Shown: positions 1,750 to 21,593 of the stretch, in pieces | Layout: each line of letters begins with the position of its first letter | Numbering within the stretch: position 1 is the stretch's first letter | Source: a virus | DNA length: 24,536 nt | Direction: 5' to 3' (one strand) | IMG/VR virus record: IMGVR_UViG_3300047661_000100 | Coordinates: 1-24,536 of that record | The notes under the pieces: generated by a model | The model's input: the letters and a program-made list of their open reading frames with translations, nothing else | Database searches by the model: none | What the model was told of the DNA's origin: nothing | Made by a program: the position numbers and the translations under genes

Positions 1750-2646
1750 ATGGGCGACCCTCGCACTGTCCCTTCCGTCTCTGCCGCCCTGGCGGAGGAG
1801 TCTTTCGCTGAACAACCCACTGTCGAGCTCACCGATCTAGCTGAGGGCCGTAGTTTAGATGCCCCAGCCTCTGTTTTGCGGTTTGATTCGGAACCTGAAA
1901 GTCCTTGTTGTGTGGGCGTCGATGTGCCGGGAGTTGGGCTTACCCATTCGTACGGATGCCCGCGGGCGCAGCACAAGTGCCTGTCGGGTTGCAGTGAGAA
2001 TGTCGTGGGTGAAGTGCCGGAGCCGCTGCGCACCTATGTTGAGGATCCGGCACGGGCGGAGCGTGATGGGCTGCTATCGCAGTTGATTAACGCTGCGCGG
2101 GCACAGGTAGAGGGGCGGATTGAGTCGCTGAAGAATGGGCAGTATATCTGCGCCAACTGCCTGATGTCCGGGACATGGGACGAATTGCAGAGCGCAGCCC
2201 ACACCTGCGGTGTGGGCCGCGTGCTGGGCTTGATCAAACGGCTCTGTGCGCTGGCTGAGAGTGTTGCAAACAATTCCACAACAAAGGAGGATGCGCCAGT
2301 CGAGGAGGGGGGCCGCGCGGGCGATGGGATTCGTTCGCGCGGGCTATGCGAGAAGGTTTGTTTTAGGTGCGGGAAGCGAGGCGGCGTTTGGGATGCGGAG
2401 CTGCAGCTGGGTCGGAAGCTTTTGCTCTCTGAGCTTGCACTGAATCAATGTGTGGAAGCTTGGGGCGATGGCCAAGGCTACACGCTCTACACGCATGAGT
2501 GCCCAAAGTCGCTCAACGAAATTCGAATGGCTGAGCAACTGCACGCACAGAGCTTGGATGTTCGCCAGTGTGACGGCTCTTGCGATAACGATTGGTGCAC
2601 AGCGACACCGTCGACAGCTGCTGGGCAGCAAGGCGGTGCGGAATGA
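1750..2646 (+). CDS. Cys-rich hypothetical early protein
   Basis: No family recognised. The 298-aa protein has an acidic, low-complexity N-terminus (about 1-50) followed by Cys-containing blocks: CPRAQHKCLSGC (about 74-85), a CANCLMSGTWDEL box with later H and C (about 138-157), CEKVCFRCGKRGG (about 207-219), and a C-terminal CDGSCDNDWC. The CxxC pairs suggest several small zinc-ribbon-like units. The start is well supported by AAGGAG at 1738-1743. The stop overlaps the parB start (ATGA), so the two are translationally coupled. Its role is probably early and linked to the ParB-like protein, but this is inference from position. Confidence 0.75.
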   Translation: MGDPRTVPSVSAALAEESFAEQPTVELTDLAEGRSLDAPASVLRFDSEPESPCCVGVDVPGVGLTHSYGCPRAQHKCLSGCSENVVGEVPEPLRTYVEDPARAERDGLLSQLINAARAQVEGRIESLKNGQYICANCLMSGTWDELQSAAHTCGVGRVLGLIKRLCALAESVANNSTTKEDAPVEEGGRAGDGIRSRGLCEKVCFRCGKRGGVWDAELQLGRKLLLSELALNQCVEAWGDGQGYTLYTHECPKSLNEIRMAEQLHAQSLDVRQCDGSCDNDWCTATPSTAAGQQGGAE

Positions 2647-4535
2647 CTGCTACCGCTCCCGTCGTTGCCGATGTTCAAGTGCGCGAGATCCCGATCGACG
2701 ACCTGTTTGTGTCACCGGATAATCCGCGCAAGACGTTTGACCAGACGCAGCTTGAAGAGCTGGCTGCCACTATCCGCAAGGGTGGGATTCTTGTACCGCT
2801 ATCGGTACGTCCTCAGATGTATCGATTTGAGATTGTTTGCGGGCAACGTCGCTATGCCGCTGGGAAGATTGCGGGGCTCGTAACCTTGCCGTGCATTGTA
2901 CGAAAGATGACAGACGCTGAAGCGGCTGAACTTGCGCTAGTCGATAACCTGCAGCGCGCGGATGTGCCGCCGCTGGAAGAGGCGCGGGCATTCGAGGCAT
3001 TGCTCAAGCAACTCGGCTCAATCGAAGCTGTGGCGGCGCGAGTAGGCAAGGAAGTATCCCATGTGGCACGGCAGCTCAAACTGTGCTCGCTGGGACTTGC
3101 GCCGTGCGATGCGCTCCGGGAAAAACTTATCACGGTGGATCATGCACTGCTGCTGGCGCGGCTGGGCCTGGATGAGCAAGATCAGGCCTTGAAATGGGTG
3201 ATCGATCCGCAGGCCGGCGTTAAGAAGTCTGTCAGCGATGTGATCGACGCCCGAATCGCTGCGCGGGCAAAGTGGGAAGAAGAGGGCAAGAACTGGAGAG
3301 CTTGGGAGCCGGAGTCGGTACTGCGGCTCAAGGAGCACATCCAAGGAGGTGCCGGTCCAGAACTTAGCCGCGCGCCTTGGTCGCTCGGTGATTTCGACCT
3401 GCTGCCGGAATTAGGCTCTTGTCTCGACTGCCCGAAGAATACCAAGGTCAATGCGCCGCTGTTTGCTGATCTGGAGATTGGTGAGCCGACTTGCACCGAT
3501 GGTGGATGTTTCAAACAAAAGACAGAAGAGTTCGTAAGGCTCGAGGCGCACTATGAGGCAAACAGGGCCGCACAGAAAGCTGGACAGCCGCCGGTCCCAG
3601 GCGCATTTGAGCCCCTCCGGGCGAGTTGGAAGCCGACTAGCTCAGAACCGCGCAAGACGAAGGTGAAGACTGACACACTAGGGCAACCGACGAAGGGAAG
3701 TATCGTCATCAATCTCGCCCAGGACTTCAAGGCTGGTCAGTGGGTTGAGGCAAAGAAGCACTGCGAACATGCGCGTGCAGCCGTCACCGTGGATTGGAGT
3801 GACAATGCGAACCGCGGCTACATGGGCCGAAACGAGAAGCTGCGCAAGCCAGGCGAGATCCTCCAGGTGTGCGTAGTGTCGGGGTGCAAGGCCCATCCGA
3901 AGGCCTGGGAGAAAGCGAAGAGCGAAGGCGGTGCGCGGCGCGATCCGGCAGCAGAGAAGGCCGCTGAGGAAAAGCGCGCGGCTGAGGCTCGTGCTGAAAG
4001 TAAGTTGCGGGTTGCGGTGGCATCCAAGGCGTTGGAATCGATTACTGCGATACCGGCCGACGTGCTGCGCGTACTCGTCATCGCAATAGCTCCCAACTAT
4101 GGCGACGCACTGAAACTTTCCGAAGCTGCGCTGCCTGGTTTTACCAAGACACTTAAAACCGCAAAGGTGGACAGTGTGGAATTTGCGAAGGCTGTCGCGC
4201 TTGTTTCACTTGACAACATCTCAGCCAATGAATATCAGGGCACGAAGTACGGCAGAGACAAGTTCTTGGCGTCGGTGAAGCGGCTAGGTTTTGACGGCGC
4301 GTATGCGTGGAAGACCTCCAGGGCGAGCAAATCTACCAAGAAGAGCGCAGTGAAGAAGACTGTGAAGGCTGCGAAGAAGGAAGCGACACCGGCGAAGCGG
4401 ACGCTATCTGCTGAGCAGAAAAAGCGCATCAAGGATGCGGTCAAGCGGCGCTGGGCGGGGCAAGGAGTACATGCACCGGCGACCAAGCTCCAGGTTACTC
4501 TGACCGACGACGAACCGGATGGAGGTGACTCATGA
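2643..4535 (+). CDS. parB: ParB/RepB/Spo0J-family protein (no ParA partner)
   Basis: A 630-aa ParB-like DNA-binding protein. The N-terminal ParB/Srx fold (about 12-105) begins REIPIDDLFVSPDNPR and contains GQRRYAAG (67-74), a variant of the canonical GERR CTP-binding motif. A KorB/ParB helix-turn-helix follows (SIEAVAARVGKEVSHVARQL, about 126-145). Further on is a possible zinc site (C260, C263, C284, C289) and a long Lys/Ala-rich, basic C-terminus. It is much longer than chromosomal ParB (about 300 aa). ATG 2643 overlaps the upstream stop and follows AAGGCGG, so this start is preferred over GTG 2592. No parA is nearby; parS-like sites occur at 11194-11228. Role may be segregation, nucleoid anchoring or transcription regulation. 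Confidence 0.9.
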   Translation: MTATAPVVADVQVREIPIDDLFVSPDNPRKTFDQTQLEELAATIRKGGILVPLSVRPQMYRFEIVCGQRRYAAGKIAGLVTLPCIVRKMTDAEAAELALVDNLQRADVPPLEEARAFEALLKQLGSIEAVAARVGKEVSHVARQLKLCSLGLAPCDALREKLITVDHALLLARLGLDEQDQALKWVIDPQAGVKKSVSDVIDARIAARAKWEEEGKNWRAWEPESVLRLKEHIQGGAGPELSRAPWSLGDFDLLPELGSCLDCPKNTKVNAPLFADLEIGEPTCTDGGCFKQKTEEFVRLEAHYEANRAAQKAGQPPVPGAFEPLRASWKPTSSEPRKTKVKTDTLGQPTKGSIVINLAQDFKAGQWVEAKKHCEHARAAVTVDWSDNANRGYMGRNEKLRKPGEILQVCVVSGCKAHPKAWEKAKSEGGARRDPAAEKAAEEKRAAEARAESKLRVAVASKALESITAIPADVLRVLVIAIAPNYGDALKLSEAALPGFTKTLKTAKVDSVEFAKAVALVSLDNISANEYQGTKYGRDKFLASVKRLGFDGAYAWKTSRASKSTKKSAVKKTVKAAKKEATPAKRTLSAEQKKRIKDAVKRRWAGQGVHAPATKLQVTLTDDEPDGGDS

Positions 4536-14829: not shown

Positions 14830-15186
14830 ATGCCAAGTCGAAGCAAGCATCCGTGCGGATCTCCTGGATGCGCGGCGCTGGTCATCGGCTCACGGTACTG
14901 CGTACAGCATCAGTCGCTCACGAATCAGGTTAAGCATGAGTTTGACCGATTCCGAGGCAGTGCCGCTGCGCGTGGATATGACCGTGCCTGGCGGATGTTT
15001 CGGGCGTGGTTCTTGCGTCGGCATCCGGTGTGTGTGGATTGTGAGGAGCGCGGCATTGTGCGACCGGCTACGGATGTGCACCACGTCCAGAAGGTTGCCG
15101 ACTATCCGGAGTTGGAACTGGTCGAGAGCAACTGCATGGCGCTTTGCCATGAGGATCACAGTATCCGAACGGCACGCGGTGAGTAG
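14830..15186 (+). CDS. HNH endonuclease (packaging-associated)
   Basis: A 118-aa HNH nuclease. An N-terminal zinc knuckle (C9, C14, C24, H27) precedes the HNH core: HPVCVDCEERG (C68, C71), TDVHHVQKV (H84/H85), VESNCMALCHEDH (N101, C106, H110). In HK97-like phages a similar HNH protein, encoded next to cos and terS, stimulates terminase cleavage of cos DNA. Here the gene is directly upstream of the probable cos region and terS, matching that arrangement. Start ATG 14830 lies three bases after the endolysin stop with a weak AGTAGG site. Confidence 0.9.
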   Translation: MPSRSKHPCGSPGCAALVIGSRYCVQHQSLTNQVKHEFDRFRGSAAARGYDRAWRMFRAWFLRRHPVCVDCEERGIVRPATDVHHVQKVADYPELELVESNCMALCHEDHSIRTARGE

Positions 15187-15403: not shown

Positions 15404-15850
15404 ATGGCTGGACGGCCTCCTAAACCGACAAACCTCTTGCAGCTCACGGGAGCCTTCAAAGCGAATCCAAAGCGGGCCGCGGCGCGCGCAGGAGAACCCA
15501 AACCGGACGGCCCTTTGGGTGGACCACCTAAGCGCTGGGAGATTGTTTCTCCTGCGACTGGATACCAGGAAGCGGAAAAGATGCGCGGCCTTTGGGCTGA
15601 GGTCGCAGAGATGGCTCCCTGGCTTACGTCGGCTGACCGATGGACGGTCGAAAGCATCTGCGAACTGAAGTTTCGCGAGCGTAATCGCTCCATCAAGCCA
15701 GGTGAGCGCGCCGAGCTGGGGCGTCTCTGCGGAAAGTGTGGCCTCAATCCGTCTGACCGTGTCCGCGTCAACACCTTTCCCGCGGTCCCGCAGAAAACTG
15801 AGGCGGGCGATCCGCGCGACAAGTATATGGAGCAGCGTCGCCAAGGATGA
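15404..15850 (+). CDS. terS: Terminase small subunit (P27 family)
   Basis: A 148-aa DNA-packaging protein. The N-terminus MAGRPPKPTNLLQLTGAFKA is the signature of P27-type small terminases, followed by a Pro/Gly/basic linker (GEPKPDGPLGGPPKRW) and an alpha-helical central domain (WAEVAEMAPWLTSADRWTVE). It recognises cos DNA and recruits TerL. GGAAGTG lies upstream of ATG 15404. TerL begins eight bases after its stop. Confidence 0.9.
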   Translation: MAGRPPKPTNLLQLTGAFKANPKRAAARAGEPKPDGPLGGPPKRWEIVSPATGYQEAEKMRGLWAEVAEMAPWLTSADRWTVESICELKFRERNRSIKPGERAELGRLCGKCGLNPSDRVRVNTFPAVPQKTEAGDPRDKYMEQRRQG

Positions 15851-15858
15851 GTTAAGTC

Positions 15859-17541
15859 ATGGGTAGAGCCAGGAGCGTCGCCGAAAAGTATATCGCCGAC
15901 GTCCTGCGCGACAAGATTGTTGTTTCAAAGTTCGTCAGGCTGCAGATCGAGAGGCATGTTAAGGACCTGAAAGATGGCGCGGCCCGCGGCCTGGTCTTTG
16001 ATCGCAAAGCGGCTGAAGCTGTTATCGATTTCTTCCCGCTCTTCCTCAAGCACACTCAGGGAGAGTATGACGATCAGCCCTTCACCTTGCTGCCGTTTCA
16101 GCAGGCGCAGTTATGGATTCTGTACGGGTGGAAGTGGAAGGCCACCGGGTACCGCCGTTTCAAGTTTGCGTATAACGAGATCGCCGCCGGCAATGGAAAG
16201 TCGGCCTTTGCCTCAGGTCTCTGCCTCTATGAACTCTATGCGTTTGGCGAGCCAGGCGCAGAAGTATTCTCGGCATCGACCGACAAGAAGACAGCGAAGC
16301 TAGTCTTCGATACCGCCAGCCTGATGGTCAGAAAGTCTGACTATCTGCGTTCGCGGATACTTGTCGGCGTCGGGAACATGAGTCTTCCCGGAACGGCGTC
16401 GAAGTTTGAGCCGCTCGCTTCTGAGGACCAAAACCTCAATGGTTTGCGGCCATCGTTTTCCGTGCTGGATGAGCTCCATACACATCGCAGTTCGGGCGTG
16501 TGGGACCAGATCGTCACCCGCATGGGCAAGCGGCGTAACCCGCTGCTCTTTGCGATTACCAACTCTGGTTTCGACCGGCACTCAGTCTGCTGGCAGCAGC
16601 GTGAGTACTCTGTCAAGGTTCTGCTCGGCGTCATCAAGGATGACACCTGGTTCGCATGGATATGCGGCCTCGACGATGGAGACGATTGGGAGGACGAACG
16701 GAATTGGCCTAAGGCGAATCCTGCACTTGGCAGCATCGTGCAGCTTGAGACGCTCCGCGAACAAGCGGCTAAAGCAAAGAACGATCCGTCCGCGTTCAAT
16801 GCATTTCTCCGCTTTCAAATGTCCGTCTGGACCACCGGCCATTCTGCCTGGATGCCCATGGATAAGTGGGACCTGTGCGGCGAAGACTTCGCACTCGACT
16901 TGCTTCTCGGCCGCGTTTGTTTCGGCGGACTCGATCTCTCAACTACCACGGATATTTCTGCGTTCGTTCTTTTGTTTCCGCCCACGGTAGACGATCTCAA
17001 GTGGCGCGTTCTTCCGTTCTTCTTCCTACCTAAAGAGGCGATTGAGAAGCGTAGCAAAAAAGATCGCGTTCCCTATGACATCTGGGCGCTTCAAGGGCTT
17101 TTCATTCTCACCTCTGGAGACGTAATCGACTACGACTTCATCCGGTCAAAAGTTAACCAGGTCGCAGGCGAGTACGAGATCAAAGAGATTGCCTACGACC
17201 CGTACAACGCACAGCAGCTCGTCACGCAACTCACCGGAGATGGTTTCACGATGGTCCCGCTGAGGCAAAGCTTCCTCAGCTTGAACGCGCCCACCAAACG
17301 CCTCATAGAAATGGTTCTCACTGGTGTGCTGGCGCATGGCGGTAACCCTGTGCTTCGCTGGATGGCCAGCAATGTCATCGTTGCCATCGACGCGGCCGGC
17401 TGCATCAAGCCAGATAAGGCCGTAAGCAGCGAAAAGATTGACGGCATTGCCGCCCTGGTCGACGCACTGGCGCGGTCCATCGTGGTTCCATCTGACTCAA
17501 AGAAATCCGTGTATGAAGAGCGAGGGCTCCTAGTCCTATGA
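15859..17541 (+). CDS. terL: Terminase large subunit
   Basis: A 560-aa packaging motor and nuclease. The ATPase domain has LLPFQQAQLW (about 77-86), a Walker A AAGNGKS (109-115) and Walker B FSVLDELH (200-207). The RNase H-like nuclease domain shows metal-binding Asp residues: CFGGLDLSTTTD (D359, D365), AYDPYN (D447) and KIDGIAALVDA (D528, D535). Length and layout are typical of Terminase_1/HK97-like enzymes. The stop overlaps the next gene by ATGA. It translocates DNA into proheads and cuts cos ends. Confidence 0.96.
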   Translation: MGRARSVAEKYIADVLRDKIVVSKFVRLQIERHVKDLKDGAARGLVFDRKAAEAVIDFFPLFLKHTQGEYDDQPFTLLPFQQAQLWILYGWKWKATGYRRFKFAYNEIAAGNGKSAFASGLCLYELYAFGEPGAEVFSASTDKKTAKLVFDTASLMVRKSDYLRSRILVGVGNMSLPGTASKFEPLASEDQNLNGLRPSFSVLDELHTHRSSGVWDQIVTRMGKRRNPLLFAITNSGFDRHSVCWQQREYSVKVLLGVIKDDTWFAWICGLDDGDDWEDERNWPKANPALGSIVQLETLREQAAKAKNDPSAFNAFLRFQMSVWTTGHSAWMPMDKWDLCGEDFALDLLLGRVCFGGLDLSTTTDISAFVLLFPPTVDDLKWRVLPFFFLPKEAIEKRSKKDRVPYDIWALQGLFILTSGDVIDYDFIRSKVNQVAGEYEIKEIAYDPYNAQQLVTQLTGDGFTMVPLRQSFLSLNAPTKRLIEMVLTGVLAHGGNPVLRWMASNVIVAIDAAGCIKPDKAVSSEKIDGIAALVDALARSIVVPSDSKKSVYEERGLLVL

Positions 17542-18170
17542 AGAATCTCTTTGCTTATCTCGTCAAACTGCTACGCCCACGCAAAACTGTTATCTCGGCT
17601 CCGTGTCGTCGCTGGATTGACGTGATTGATTGGCTTAAATGTGAGGAAGAGTTTAATCGTTATGACCTCAAGGGGAGGCAGTGCTTTGGCGGCATCGCAC
17701 TCGCGAACATTGAGGGATTTTCGGTATTCGTGCTCGTGTTCCCTCCTATCGCCATCGATCCGAAATATTACGCGGTCTCTTTCTGTTTTCCTGCCAGGCA
17801 GAACGTAGAAGGTATCCGCCTACGGATAGGCGAACTCAATACAATCTTTCACCCAGAGGCAGTAGGTTTCGATCCATGGGAGGGGGCATCGCTTATGTCG
17901 CAGCTCTACGGAGATGGCCTCCCGACGGTGAAAGTGAGGCAAGGTTTTAGCTCGTTAAGTTCGCCCACCAAAAGAATGAAAGAGCTAGTTTTGTGGGGGC
18001 TTCTAGCGTTTAGCCGTGATTCGGTGCTGCTAGATGCGATTTATGGCTTTGAGGTGAGAGTTGATGCGTCGGGCAACGTTGCTCCAATTCTTGTGGGTAA
18101 AAGTCGTCCGATTGGTGCGCTGATCAACGCGCTCGCGGTGTCCGGTATGTCTGCGCAAGAGGGGTGCTGA
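17538..18170 (+). CDS. Duplicate TerL nuclease-like domain, catalytic Asp residues lost
   Basis: A 210-aa protein that aligns along its length with the TerL C-terminal nuclease domain: LKGRQCFGGIALANIEGFSV matches LLGRVCFGGLDLSTTTDISA; FDPWEGASLMSQLYGDGLPT matches YDPYNAQQLVTQLTGDGFTM; SSPTKRMKELVLWGLLAFSR matches NAPTKRLIEMVLTGVLAHGG. Key acids are replaced: A54 for TerL D359, G60 for D365, R190 and N197 for D528 and D535; only D112 (for D447) is kept. There is no ATPase domain. ATG 17538 overlaps the terL stop, so it is translationally coupled. It is likely inactive as a nuclease and may be a regulatory or structural subunit, or a decaying copy. Its sequence looks more AT-rich than terL. 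Confidence 0.85.
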   Translation: MKNLFAYLVKLLRPRKTVISAPCRRWIDVIDWLKCEEEFNRYDLKGRQCFGGIALANIEGFSVFVLVFPPIAIDPKYYAVSFCFPARQNVEGIRLRIGELNTIFHPEAVGFDPWEGASLMSQLYGDGLPTVKVRQGFSSLSSPTKRMKELVLWGLLAFSRDSVLLDAIYGFEVRVDASGNVAPILVGKSRPIGALINALAVSGMSAQEGC

Positions 18171-18174
18171 TCTT

Positions 18175-18342
18175 ATGAAGAAAAATCCTTCTGCAGTCGG
18201 GGACGCGACGGGCCTGTTCGGCATGGTCCTCATGAGCGTGGGCACCAGCATGATCTATCGTCCTGCTGGCGTCATCCTGGGCGGCGTTTTGCTTGTGCTG
18301 CTCGCGTTGTTCGGATTTAAACCTGAAAAGACTGAAAACTGA
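18175..18342 (+). CDS. Small two-helix membrane protein
   Basis: A 55-aa protein with hydrophobic segments TGLFGMVLMSVGTSMIY and AGVILGGVLLVLLALFG and a charged tail. AGAGGGG lies upstream of ATG 18175, and the stop overlaps the portal start by one base (TGATG). Such small membrane ORFs are sometimes found between terL and portal. Role unknown. Confidence 0.65.
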   Translation: MKKNPSAVGDATGLFGMVLMSVGTSMIYRPAGVILGGVLLVLLALFGFKPEKTEN

Positions 18343-19919
18343 TGGCCCTCTTCGGCAATATCCGCAACGCGATCAGTATCGCTGGCGACTCAGTTTCGCA
18401 GCCCACTGGATGGTTGCAGCGCCTGCTGGCGCTTTCGCAAACATCCTCGGGAATCACGATTCATGAGGCCAACGCGCTCACCGTCAGCGATGTCTACAAG
18501 TGCGTCAATGTCATCGCCCAAACTGTGGCGATGTTGCCCTGGAAGGTCTACCGTAACCTCGATCCGCGGGGCCGCATCGAGGCGAAGAAGCACTCGCTCT
18601 ATTTCAGGCTGCACGACGAGCCCAACGAGCGCATGACCTCGTACACGTATCGCTGGACTATGATGGCTCACTTGCTTATCTGGGGCCGCCACGCTAGTTA
18701 CATTGAACGCGACGCCGCCGGCAAGGTGGTTGCACTGCGGCCGCTTCGTCCAGACCTGTTTTACTGGCAGATCCGCGACGGGAAAATGTGGTTCTACGCC
18801 TCCACGATCGACGGCGTGCAGCAGCAGTTTTGGGAAGACGAGATCCTCTACATCACGGGTGGAACACGCGACGGCTATAACGCCTACTCGCCCACCAATC
18901 TGCACCGAGAGACGCTTGGTCTGAGTAAGGCGCTTGAAGTCTTTGGCGCGAAGCTCTTCGGTAACGGATCGATGCCGGGGGGCTTCCTAAAGCACCCGGG
19001 AAATCTCTCGAAAGAGGCTGCTCAGCGGCTCAAAGAGAGCTTCGAAGAAAAGCAGCGTGGCCTTGATACTGCGCATCGCCTCGCTGTTCTGGAAGAGGGT
19101 TTGGATTATGTTCCGAATCCGCTCGACCCGGAGAAGGCGCAAGCCATTCTTACCCGGCAATTCCAGCGTGCGGATCTGGCCGGCTTGTGGCGTGTTCCTC
19201 CGCACAAAATCGGAGACCTGAGCCGCTCGACCAACAACAATATCGAGCATCAGGATCTGGAGTTCCTGCGCGACTGCATCGCGCCTTGGCTGGTTTGTAT
19301 TGAGCAGGCCTGCAATCGTTCGCTTTTGCTACCACGCGAGAAGGGGAATTTCTTCACCGAGTTCGACGTCAACGGCATGATGCGCGGTGACACGGCGGCG
19401 CGCACGTCTCACTGCAAAGATATGTTCATGATCGGGGCTTACTCCGACAATGACGTCCGCGAATACCAAGGACTCAACCCAATTCCAGGCGGCGATCGCT
19501 ACTTTATCCCGCTCAATATGATGCCCATCGACCAGCTCGACGACACTCCCAACGCGGATACGCTCGACGAGGACGGCAAGCCAATTCAGCGGGCCATCTC
19601 TCCTGGCCAAGCGCTGGCTGCTGTCGGTCGCATCCGCCAGGCGCATGAGCGCTTTTTTCGAGACGCTGTGGGCCGCATTGTGCACCGCAAACCCGGCGAA
19701 CGGAGCAATTACGCGGAATCTGCGCTAATTTCGCCTATTTTGAGCCTGATTGAGGGTCTTTTCGACGAAATATCTGCGGAAAACAAGCTTTTTGCGAGCT
19801 CCTTTGCGCGCGAAATTGGCATCGACGCGCCCAATTGGGCGGCCGAAAACGCTGACATGATCGCCGGTTACCAGCTTGACCGCACGATCCGCATCCTGCT
19901 GCCGAGGAAGGCGAATTAG
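18342..19919 (+). CDS. Portal protein, HK97 family
   Basis: A 525-aa portal subunit. The N-terminal region contains the family signature AL(T)VSDVYKCVNVIAQTVAML followed by PWKVYRN, then LTSYTYRWTMMAHLL-type helix and GRHASYIERD. Central wing/stem features include the GNGSMPGGFL stretch and the NIEHQDLEFLRDCIAPWL helix. It forms the dodecameric DNA channel at one capsid vertex and docks TerL. ATG 18342 overlaps the preceding stop; the protease begins immediately after its TAG. Confidence 0.95.
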   Translation: MALFGNIRNAISIAGDSVSQPTGWLQRLLALSQTSSGITIHEANALTVSDVYKCVNVIAQTVAMLPWKVYRNLDPRGRIEAKKHSLYFRLHDEPNERMTSYTYRWTMMAHLLIWGRHASYIERDAAGKVVALRPLRPDLFYWQIRDGKMWFYASTIDGVQQQFWEDEILYITGGTRDGYNAYSPTNLHRETLGLSKALEVFGAKLFGNGSMPGGFLKHPGNLSKEAAQRLKESFEEKQRGLDTAHRLAVLEEGLDYVPNPLDPEKAQAILTRQFQRADLAGLWRVPPHKIGDLSRSTNNNIEHQDLEFLRDCIAPWLVCIEQACNRSLLLPREKGNFFTEFDVNGMMRGDTAARTSHCKDMFMIGAYSDNDVREYQGLNPIPGGDRYFIPLNMMPIDQLDDTPNADTLDEDGKPIQRAISPGQALAAVGRIRQAHERFFRDAVGRIVHRKPGERSNYAESALISPILSLIEGLFDEISAENKLFASSFAREIGIDAPNWAAENADMIAGYQLDRTIRILLPRKAN

Positions 19920-20858: not shown

Positions 20859-21593
20859 ATGACCCCGTACTACGAGCATGCGGGCATCAAGATTTATCAC
20901 GGGGATTGCAGAGACGTTCTAGAAGCCGAGGATGTAAATTCTGATCTTCTCTGTATGGATCCTCCGTATGGGATCGGTATGTGCCGTGGCCGCATTGGAG
21001 GCAGCAGTGGAAAGGGGGGCTTCGGAGGCAGAAAGTTCTGCAGGACCTATCCGGCTAGGGATTGGGGTGAATCTGACTGGGATGATGTCCCTGCTGCCGA
21101 TGATCTGATCGAAATATGTCGCGGCGCTGCTCCTGCCCAAGTGATATGGGGCGGAAATTATTTTCATCTTCCTCCGTCGATGCGCTGGCTTGTTTGGGAT
21201 AAGCGCAACGATGGCACAGGGTTCGCCGATTGCGAGCTGGCCTGGACAAATCAAAGAAGTGCGGTGCGGATCTTCAGACACCGCTGGAATGGGATGCTCC
21301 AAGAATACGGAGGCAGATCCAAAGAACTCCGATTACACCCCACAATGAAGCCATTGTCTCTGATGAAATGGTGTATAGGCTTCTTCCCTGATGCGAAGTC
21401 TGTCCTTGATCCTTTTATGGGAAGTGGCACCACGTTGGTCGCTGCCAAGGCAATCGGTCTATCTGCTGTTGGTATAGAACGCGAAGAGAAGTACTGCGAG
21501 ATTGCGGCCACGAGATTAAGCCAGGAGGTTTTCGATTTTGGGGGATCTGGAAATCTACCTTCTAGCGAAGGCGGCCAAATAATCATGACGTGA
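20859..21593 (+). CDS. DNA methyltransferase (N4/N6-type, beta class)
   Basis: A 244-aa site-specific amino-methyltransferase. DPPYG (34-38) is the catalytic motif IV; DPFMGSGTT (184-192) is the SAM-binding motif I; HPTMKP (160-165) precedes it. The order IV then I marks the beta class. It modifies adenine N6 or cytosine N4; the target is unknown and no partner restriction enzyme is adjacent, so it is likely an orphan methylase protecting phage DNA or marking it. RBS GAGGTAAG is before ATG 20859. It interrupts the usual protease-capsid order and ends with its own terminator, as expected for an inserted (moron) gene. Confidence 0.9.
   Translation: MTPYYEHAGIKIYHGDCRDVLEAEDVNSDLLCMDPPYGIGMCRGRIGGSSGKGGFGGRKFCRTYPARDWGESDWDDVPAADDLIEICRGAAPAQVIWGGNYFHLPPSMRWLVWDKRNDGTGFADCELAWTNQRSAVRIFRHRWNGMLQEYGGRSKELRLHPTMKPLSLMKWCIGFFPDAKSVLDPFMGSGTTLVAAKAIGLSAVGIEREEKYCEIAATRLSQEVFDFGGSGNLPSSEGGQIIMT

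Follow-up and report, generated by a model that had tools for sequence, protein, structure and literature searches.

The terL locus of the window

The window, by which we mean the whole stretch of DNA analysed, is a complete IMG/VR record of 24,536 bases. Its source is a temperate, HK97-like phage. An integrase gene lies at the left end and is followed, in this order, by genes for an HNH endonuclease, the small and large terminase subunits (terS and terL), the open reading frame studied here (the ORF), a small membrane protein, the portal, a ClpP-type protease, a DNA methyltransferase and the capsid (Table 1). The ORF spans 633 bp (210 codons), begins with ATG and contains neither a stop nor a frameshift. 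The ATGA overlap with terL noted in a preliminary description of this DNA was confirmed from the sequence: the start codon of the ORF runs into the terL stop codon (TGA, 17539-17541).

Table 1. Features of the packaging region of the window
Feature	Position	Strand	Basis or remark
HNH endonuclease	14830-15186	+	profile matches
terS, small terminase	15404-15850	+	phrog_83
terL, complete HK97-type large terminase	15859-17541	+	ATPase PF03354 and nuclease PF20441; catalytic acids present
terL segment with no counterpart in the pseudonuclease	17044-17139	+	residues ~396-427, two helices and a strand
ATGA overlap of terL stop and pseudonuclease start	17538-17541	+	sequence
Stand-alone putative pseudonuclease (the ORF), TerL nuclease-domain homologue, 210 aa, catalytic site apparently lost	17538-18170	+	homology, alignment, predicted fold
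Small membrane protein, 55 aa, phrog_502	18175-18342	+	adjoins the terL 3′ end in relatives
Portal protein	18342-19919	+	profile matches

Two further genes of the window deserve mention. In the early region (2592-4535) a 647-aa frame starting from TTG encodes ParB N-terminal and HTH domains. The DNA methyltransferase gene (20859-21593) has a low GC3 (0.52); a 43%-identical copy is present in locus L004, and none was found in loci L006, L027, L030 and L084.

Homology to the TerL nuclease domain

Homology between the ORF product and the TerL nuclease domain is far above chance. BLASTP aligned the product with residues 316-540 of the neighbouring TerL at 31% identity (E 2e-29), Pfam family PF20441 matched it with 39.7 bits (curated cut-off 24), and PHROG terminase families matched down to 4e-20. 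The motifs CFGG, FVLxFPP, DP, GDG and RQxFxSLxxPTKR occur in both proteins in the same order, so the shared blocks reported earlier were recovered in the alignment. Coverage of the entire nuclease domain, also reported, was not: about 30 residues (TerL ~396-427) are missing. The ATPase domain is absent as well, since the ORF begins at the TerL linker and has no match to PF03354. Identity over aligned columns is 36% with the TerL of L194, 35% with that of L027 and 34% with the neighbour. Being about equally close to other TerLs and to the neighbour, the product is no simple copy of the adjacent gene; of the term ‘duplicate’ used previously the homology stands, while copying of the neighbour is unproved.

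The catalytic site

The catalytic centre of HK97 TerL comprises D302, D388 and D471, and K463 enters the site (PMC9410871). Mapped through an alignment with chain 6z6d, these residues correspond to D359, D447, D528 and K520 of the window TerL. In the ORF, D359 is replaced by A54 and K520 by L185, D447 is kept as D112, and the position of D528 is occupied by G193 in the gapped and by R190 in the ungapped alignment. Two of the three catalytic acids are therefore gone, and only HK97 D388 retains a counterpart (D112). The preliminary description had counted four of five metal-ligand Asp residues as changed; the loss of catalytic acids holds and the count does not, because D365 (G60 in the ORF) is conserved in TerLs but lies outside the catalytic three, and D535 is not conserved among TerL relatives. 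Further conserved residues lost from the ORF are H493, W501, N505 and E525.

Across the 49 columns that are at least 93% conserved in 32 TerLs, the ORF keeps 19, changes 20 and lacks 10. Polar columns were lost more often than others (11 of 15 versus 9 of 24; Fisher p 0.048, or 0.007 when conservative changes count as kept), in a grouping that was chosen after the data had been seen. In the TerL model the missing segment folds as two helices and a strand. In position and make-up it appears to correspond to the alpha-alpha-beta element of HK97 TerL, as read from secondary structure rather than from superposition. The HK97 authors describe this element as HK97-specific, an extra relative to pac terminases, and suggest it as a possible platform for the HNH protein (PMC9410871).

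These alignments support the view that the nuclease site of the ORF has been dismantled and that the domain is apparently dead. An active enzyme with a rebuilt site, in which D112 and nearby acids such as E59 bind metal, would make use of the retained D112 and of E59, one position before the lost D365. We regard it as highly improbable, given that no acid is found at or near the D359 and D528 positions, that the switch lysine is lost and that the element holding RDxVPYD is deleted.

Substitutions of catalytic acids were also seen in single TerLs of other loci. A full-length TerL (L211:835-2709) has its first catalytic Asp changed to Ala (GLALS), and its other acids read Glu (GFEKHG, RVEGI). 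The TerL of L209 (minus strand), whose contig is cut at the TerL 5′ end, likewise has Ala for the first Asp and keeps the other acids.

Predicted fold

The structure prediction proposed in the preliminary description was carried out with AlphaFold2, using an alignment of TerL homologues as input. The ORF product was predicted with confidence (pLDDT 85.9, pTM 0.82; first 23 residues poorly predicted) as an RNase H-like TerL nuclease fold, an outcome that the TerL sequences in the alignment favour. The best PDB match found by VIA-align was HK97 TerL (6Z6D; Z 21.4, rmsd 2.1, 173 residues), followed by other terminase nucleases (Z 13-17) and then by lower-scoring recombinases and RuvC.

The model also aligns to Avs3-bound TerL (8dgc, Z 11.3). 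The terminase large subunit is among the phage proteins that trigger Avs1-4 defence (PMC12931631), and prophage proteins that inhibit virion assembly are known (PMC10884400). A dead domain made with the late genes might thus blunt TerL-recognising host sensors of the Avs type or poison the packaging of other phages; the integrase carried by the phage would fit such a role, and occurrence in a single record (see below) would suit an accessory gene. This explanation nevertheless seems improbable to us: the Avs3 match reflects the shared TerL fold only, no PADLOC match was obtained, and a late-operon position beside terL fits a packaging role equally well.

Occurrence among relatives

In the four nearest relatives with the same gene order (L004, L006, L027 and L030; TerL identity 69-74%) the ATGA overlap is between terL and the small membrane-protein gene themselves, and no second domain intervenes. 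A second nuclease domain is likewise missing beside the closest TerL found (L194, 80%). When all reading frames of 208 loci were searched with an HMM, such a domain turned up only in the window and the three loci taken from it; L159 gave, in addition, a weak, frameshifted TerL remnant.

Other searches gave the same picture. Among phage records matching TerL there were 2,788 match places in 2,786 records, so at most two records have a second match. Peptide patterns taken from the ORF retrieved no relative from viral or genome contigs, a DNA-level search of phages with the ORF gave no match, and a motif scan of 36 TerL loci revealed the second domain in none. Scanning for the dead first strand (CxGGxAL and FPP at fixed spacing) returned four loci, namely two TerLs and two chance matches. 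Plasmids yielded eight places, six annotated as TerL and two without annotation. Three of the 298 genomes of the L087 phylum had matches, in frames of 567-678 aa, and the matches listed for PF20441 over 299 genomes of the L088 phylum included no full TerL with a short second copy next to it. In the open literature we found nothing on point for a duplicated or decoy terminase nuclease.

The ORF is thus known from one record in the collections searched, which may leave out near-identical phages. The search for the same pair of terL and orphan domain in other phages, suggested in the preliminary description, found none in these collections; with a single record, and with relatives that have similar TerLs and lack the ORF, conservation of the pair is not demonstrated.

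Three other arrangements were observed at terL genes. In a Christensenella MAG contig (L159:4889-5320) the frameshifted TerL nuclease piece follows a full TerL and an HNH gene and looks like a decaying terL remnant. In G307:C1:304284-311474 some 6 kb separate two partial matches to the nuclease profile, which lie in frames of 449 and 212 aa, and the TerL gene looks split by insertion. In contigs L021-L026, imperfect repeats encoding (A)VAERWRSGG(E/G) lie between terL and portal, before a membrane-protein frame, and differ in number between contigs.

Origin of the ORF

In the TerL tree the ORF, whose branch measures 2.2 substitutions per site, falls at the base of a clade formed by the neighbouring TerL's clade and L019, a placement open to long-branch attraction. 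Several alternative positions were not rejected, among them sister to the neighbouring TerL (AU p 0.068) and sister to L198 (0.218); grouping with L005, the L008-group, L017, L021, L032 or L205 was rejected. Recent tandem copying of the adjacent terL, although not rejected outright by the AU test, is not favoured because of the very long branch and because relatives with 69-80% identical TerLs lack the ORF. TerLs of the L084/L085 type showed no similarity to the ORF at E 1e-3. The best explanation of these comparisons is that the ORF descends from a TerL nuclease domain of its neighbour's broad TerL group. Either tandem duplication or recombination with a related terL may have placed it between terL and the small membrane-protein gene, after which it would have diverged far with its reading frame intact. 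A tandem duplication could have spanned the stretch between the TerL linker and the beginning of the small gene; the similar N-termini, MKN in the ORF and MKK in the small gene, are a weak hint.

Exchange of terL upstream of the junction with the small gene does occur in relatives. L084:1316-4779 carries the small gene, portal and capsid of the window lineage (59, 73 and 70% identity) with a TerL only ~30% identical, and its terL too is joined to the small gene by an overlap; conversely, L194 combines an 80% TerL with a 32% portal. In L085 the small gene, portal and capsid are likewise of the window lineage and the TerL is only ~30% identical.

Such exchanges raise the possibility that the ORF is a recombination remnant: the 3′ portion of an earlier or foreign terL, stranded between terL and the membrane-protein gene, functionless and open by chance. 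Its single record, its lower GC3 (0.54 versus 0.67 for terL) and the existence of a decaying remnant downstream of TerL in L159 point the same way. Yet a recently displaced TerL should retain the invariant catalytic residues, the L159 piece is frameshifted and the ORF is not, and the exchanged TerLs of L084 and L085 do not match it. We hold this origin to be a real possibility, though a lesser one than a function.

Selection on the ORF

Selection was assessed with a codon model written for this analysis. Neutral evolution of the ORF branch was rejected (2dlnL 30.2, p 4e-8), also when the ORF was placed as sister of the neighbouring TerL (2dlnL 35.9), and each half of the ORF departed significantly from neutrality (weakest p 0.04). 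Because synonymous sites are saturated, omega of the ORF has no usable value. Simulated neutral loss of conserved residues gave 4.9 expected stops and a probability of 0.012 of none, before indels are counted; a functionless remnant is thus unlikely to have accumulated its changed and deleted conserved columns with no stop or frameshift (P ~0.01 on stops alone). We infer that selection acted on the ORF after its release from TerL function. This is an argument and not a proof, since the branch may also cover a long earlier period in a working TerL and the test cannot date the constraint.

Simple decay of the ORF is not favoured, as the frame is open and a neutral branch is rejected. The two signs by which the preliminary description would have recognised a decaying duplicate, absence of the pair elsewhere and dN/dS near 1, split: the pair was not found elsewhere, yet neutrality was rejected and omega itself was unusable. 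Its alternative of a recent recombination remnant is weakened by the rejected neutrality and the open frame and is left standing by the single record, the low GC3 and the terL exchange in L084. Its central proposal, a maintained, open and apparently dead nuclease domain, gains support from the confident predicted fold, the dismantled site, the rejected neutrality and the uninterrupted frame.

A putative trans-acting pseudonuclease

We conclude that a stand-alone, apparently dead TerL nuclease domain beside a complete TerL is a real and unusual gene. That it encodes a co-translated pseudonuclease, which binds TerL, portal or DNA without cutting, we judge just short of an even call. This functional reading is ahead of its rivals by a small margin, as the ORF is a single case in the searches made. 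The ATGA start, as for the next gene in relatives, was counted in favour of coupling, and the product, if made, probably acts by binding and not by cutting.

Under the functional reading, translation of the pseudonuclease from the late packaging operon would be coupled to that of TerL. As a free, non-cutting domain it could take up the contacts that nuclease domains make with TerL, portal, TerS or DNA, and so limit or time TerL docking or cleavage; alternatively, a free domain of the same fold could bind DNA ends. In HK97 motors the TerL nuclease domains are arranged as a ring immediately below the portal, with which the terminase ring makes asymmetric contact (PMC10359639); with the nuclease ring so placed, a free non-cutting copy could compete at portal/TerL contacts. 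More specifically, and rather doubtfully, the terminase might possess a dedicated trans-acting pseudonuclease subunit, a free dead nuclease copy which, by entering or guarding the motor, would control docking or cleavage.

The question touched is what restrains TerL cleavage while DNA is being translocated and what switches it on at the end. If the functional reading is true, a nuclease domain that occurs naturally in free, non-cutting form beside an active TerL would offer a ready reagent for this question, and the idea of pseudoenzyme regulators would extend to viral packaging. If the ORF is a remnant only, it would record, in well-preserved form, an exchange of terL at the terL/portal boundary.

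Comparison with known systems

The nuclease domain of HK97 TerL (6Z6D; PF20441) and the ORF product are homologous and share the RNase H-like fold, with one catalytic Asp kept in the latter. Unlike HK97 TerL, the product lacks the ATPase domain, two of the three catalytic Asp residues, the switch Lys and the alpha-alpha-beta element, and is encoded by a separate gene beside a complete TerL. The L159 remnant is likewise a second TerL nuclease piece downstream of a full terL; it is frameshifted and short, whereas the ORF is intact, folds in prediction and stands in translational overlap. The C-terminal domain of phi29 gp16 is a vestigial nuclease with the terminase fold, from which the catalytic residues are gone and in which DNA/RNA binding is kept (PMC7672431); a terminase nuclease fold can therefore be retained for binding after catalysis is lost. 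Like the ORF product it has the RNase H-like terminase fold in a reduced structure, while the ORF still has one of the three acids (D112). The phi29 domain lies within the motor ATPase and works with pRNA, whereas the ORF encodes a free 210-aa copy beside an active-looking TerL.
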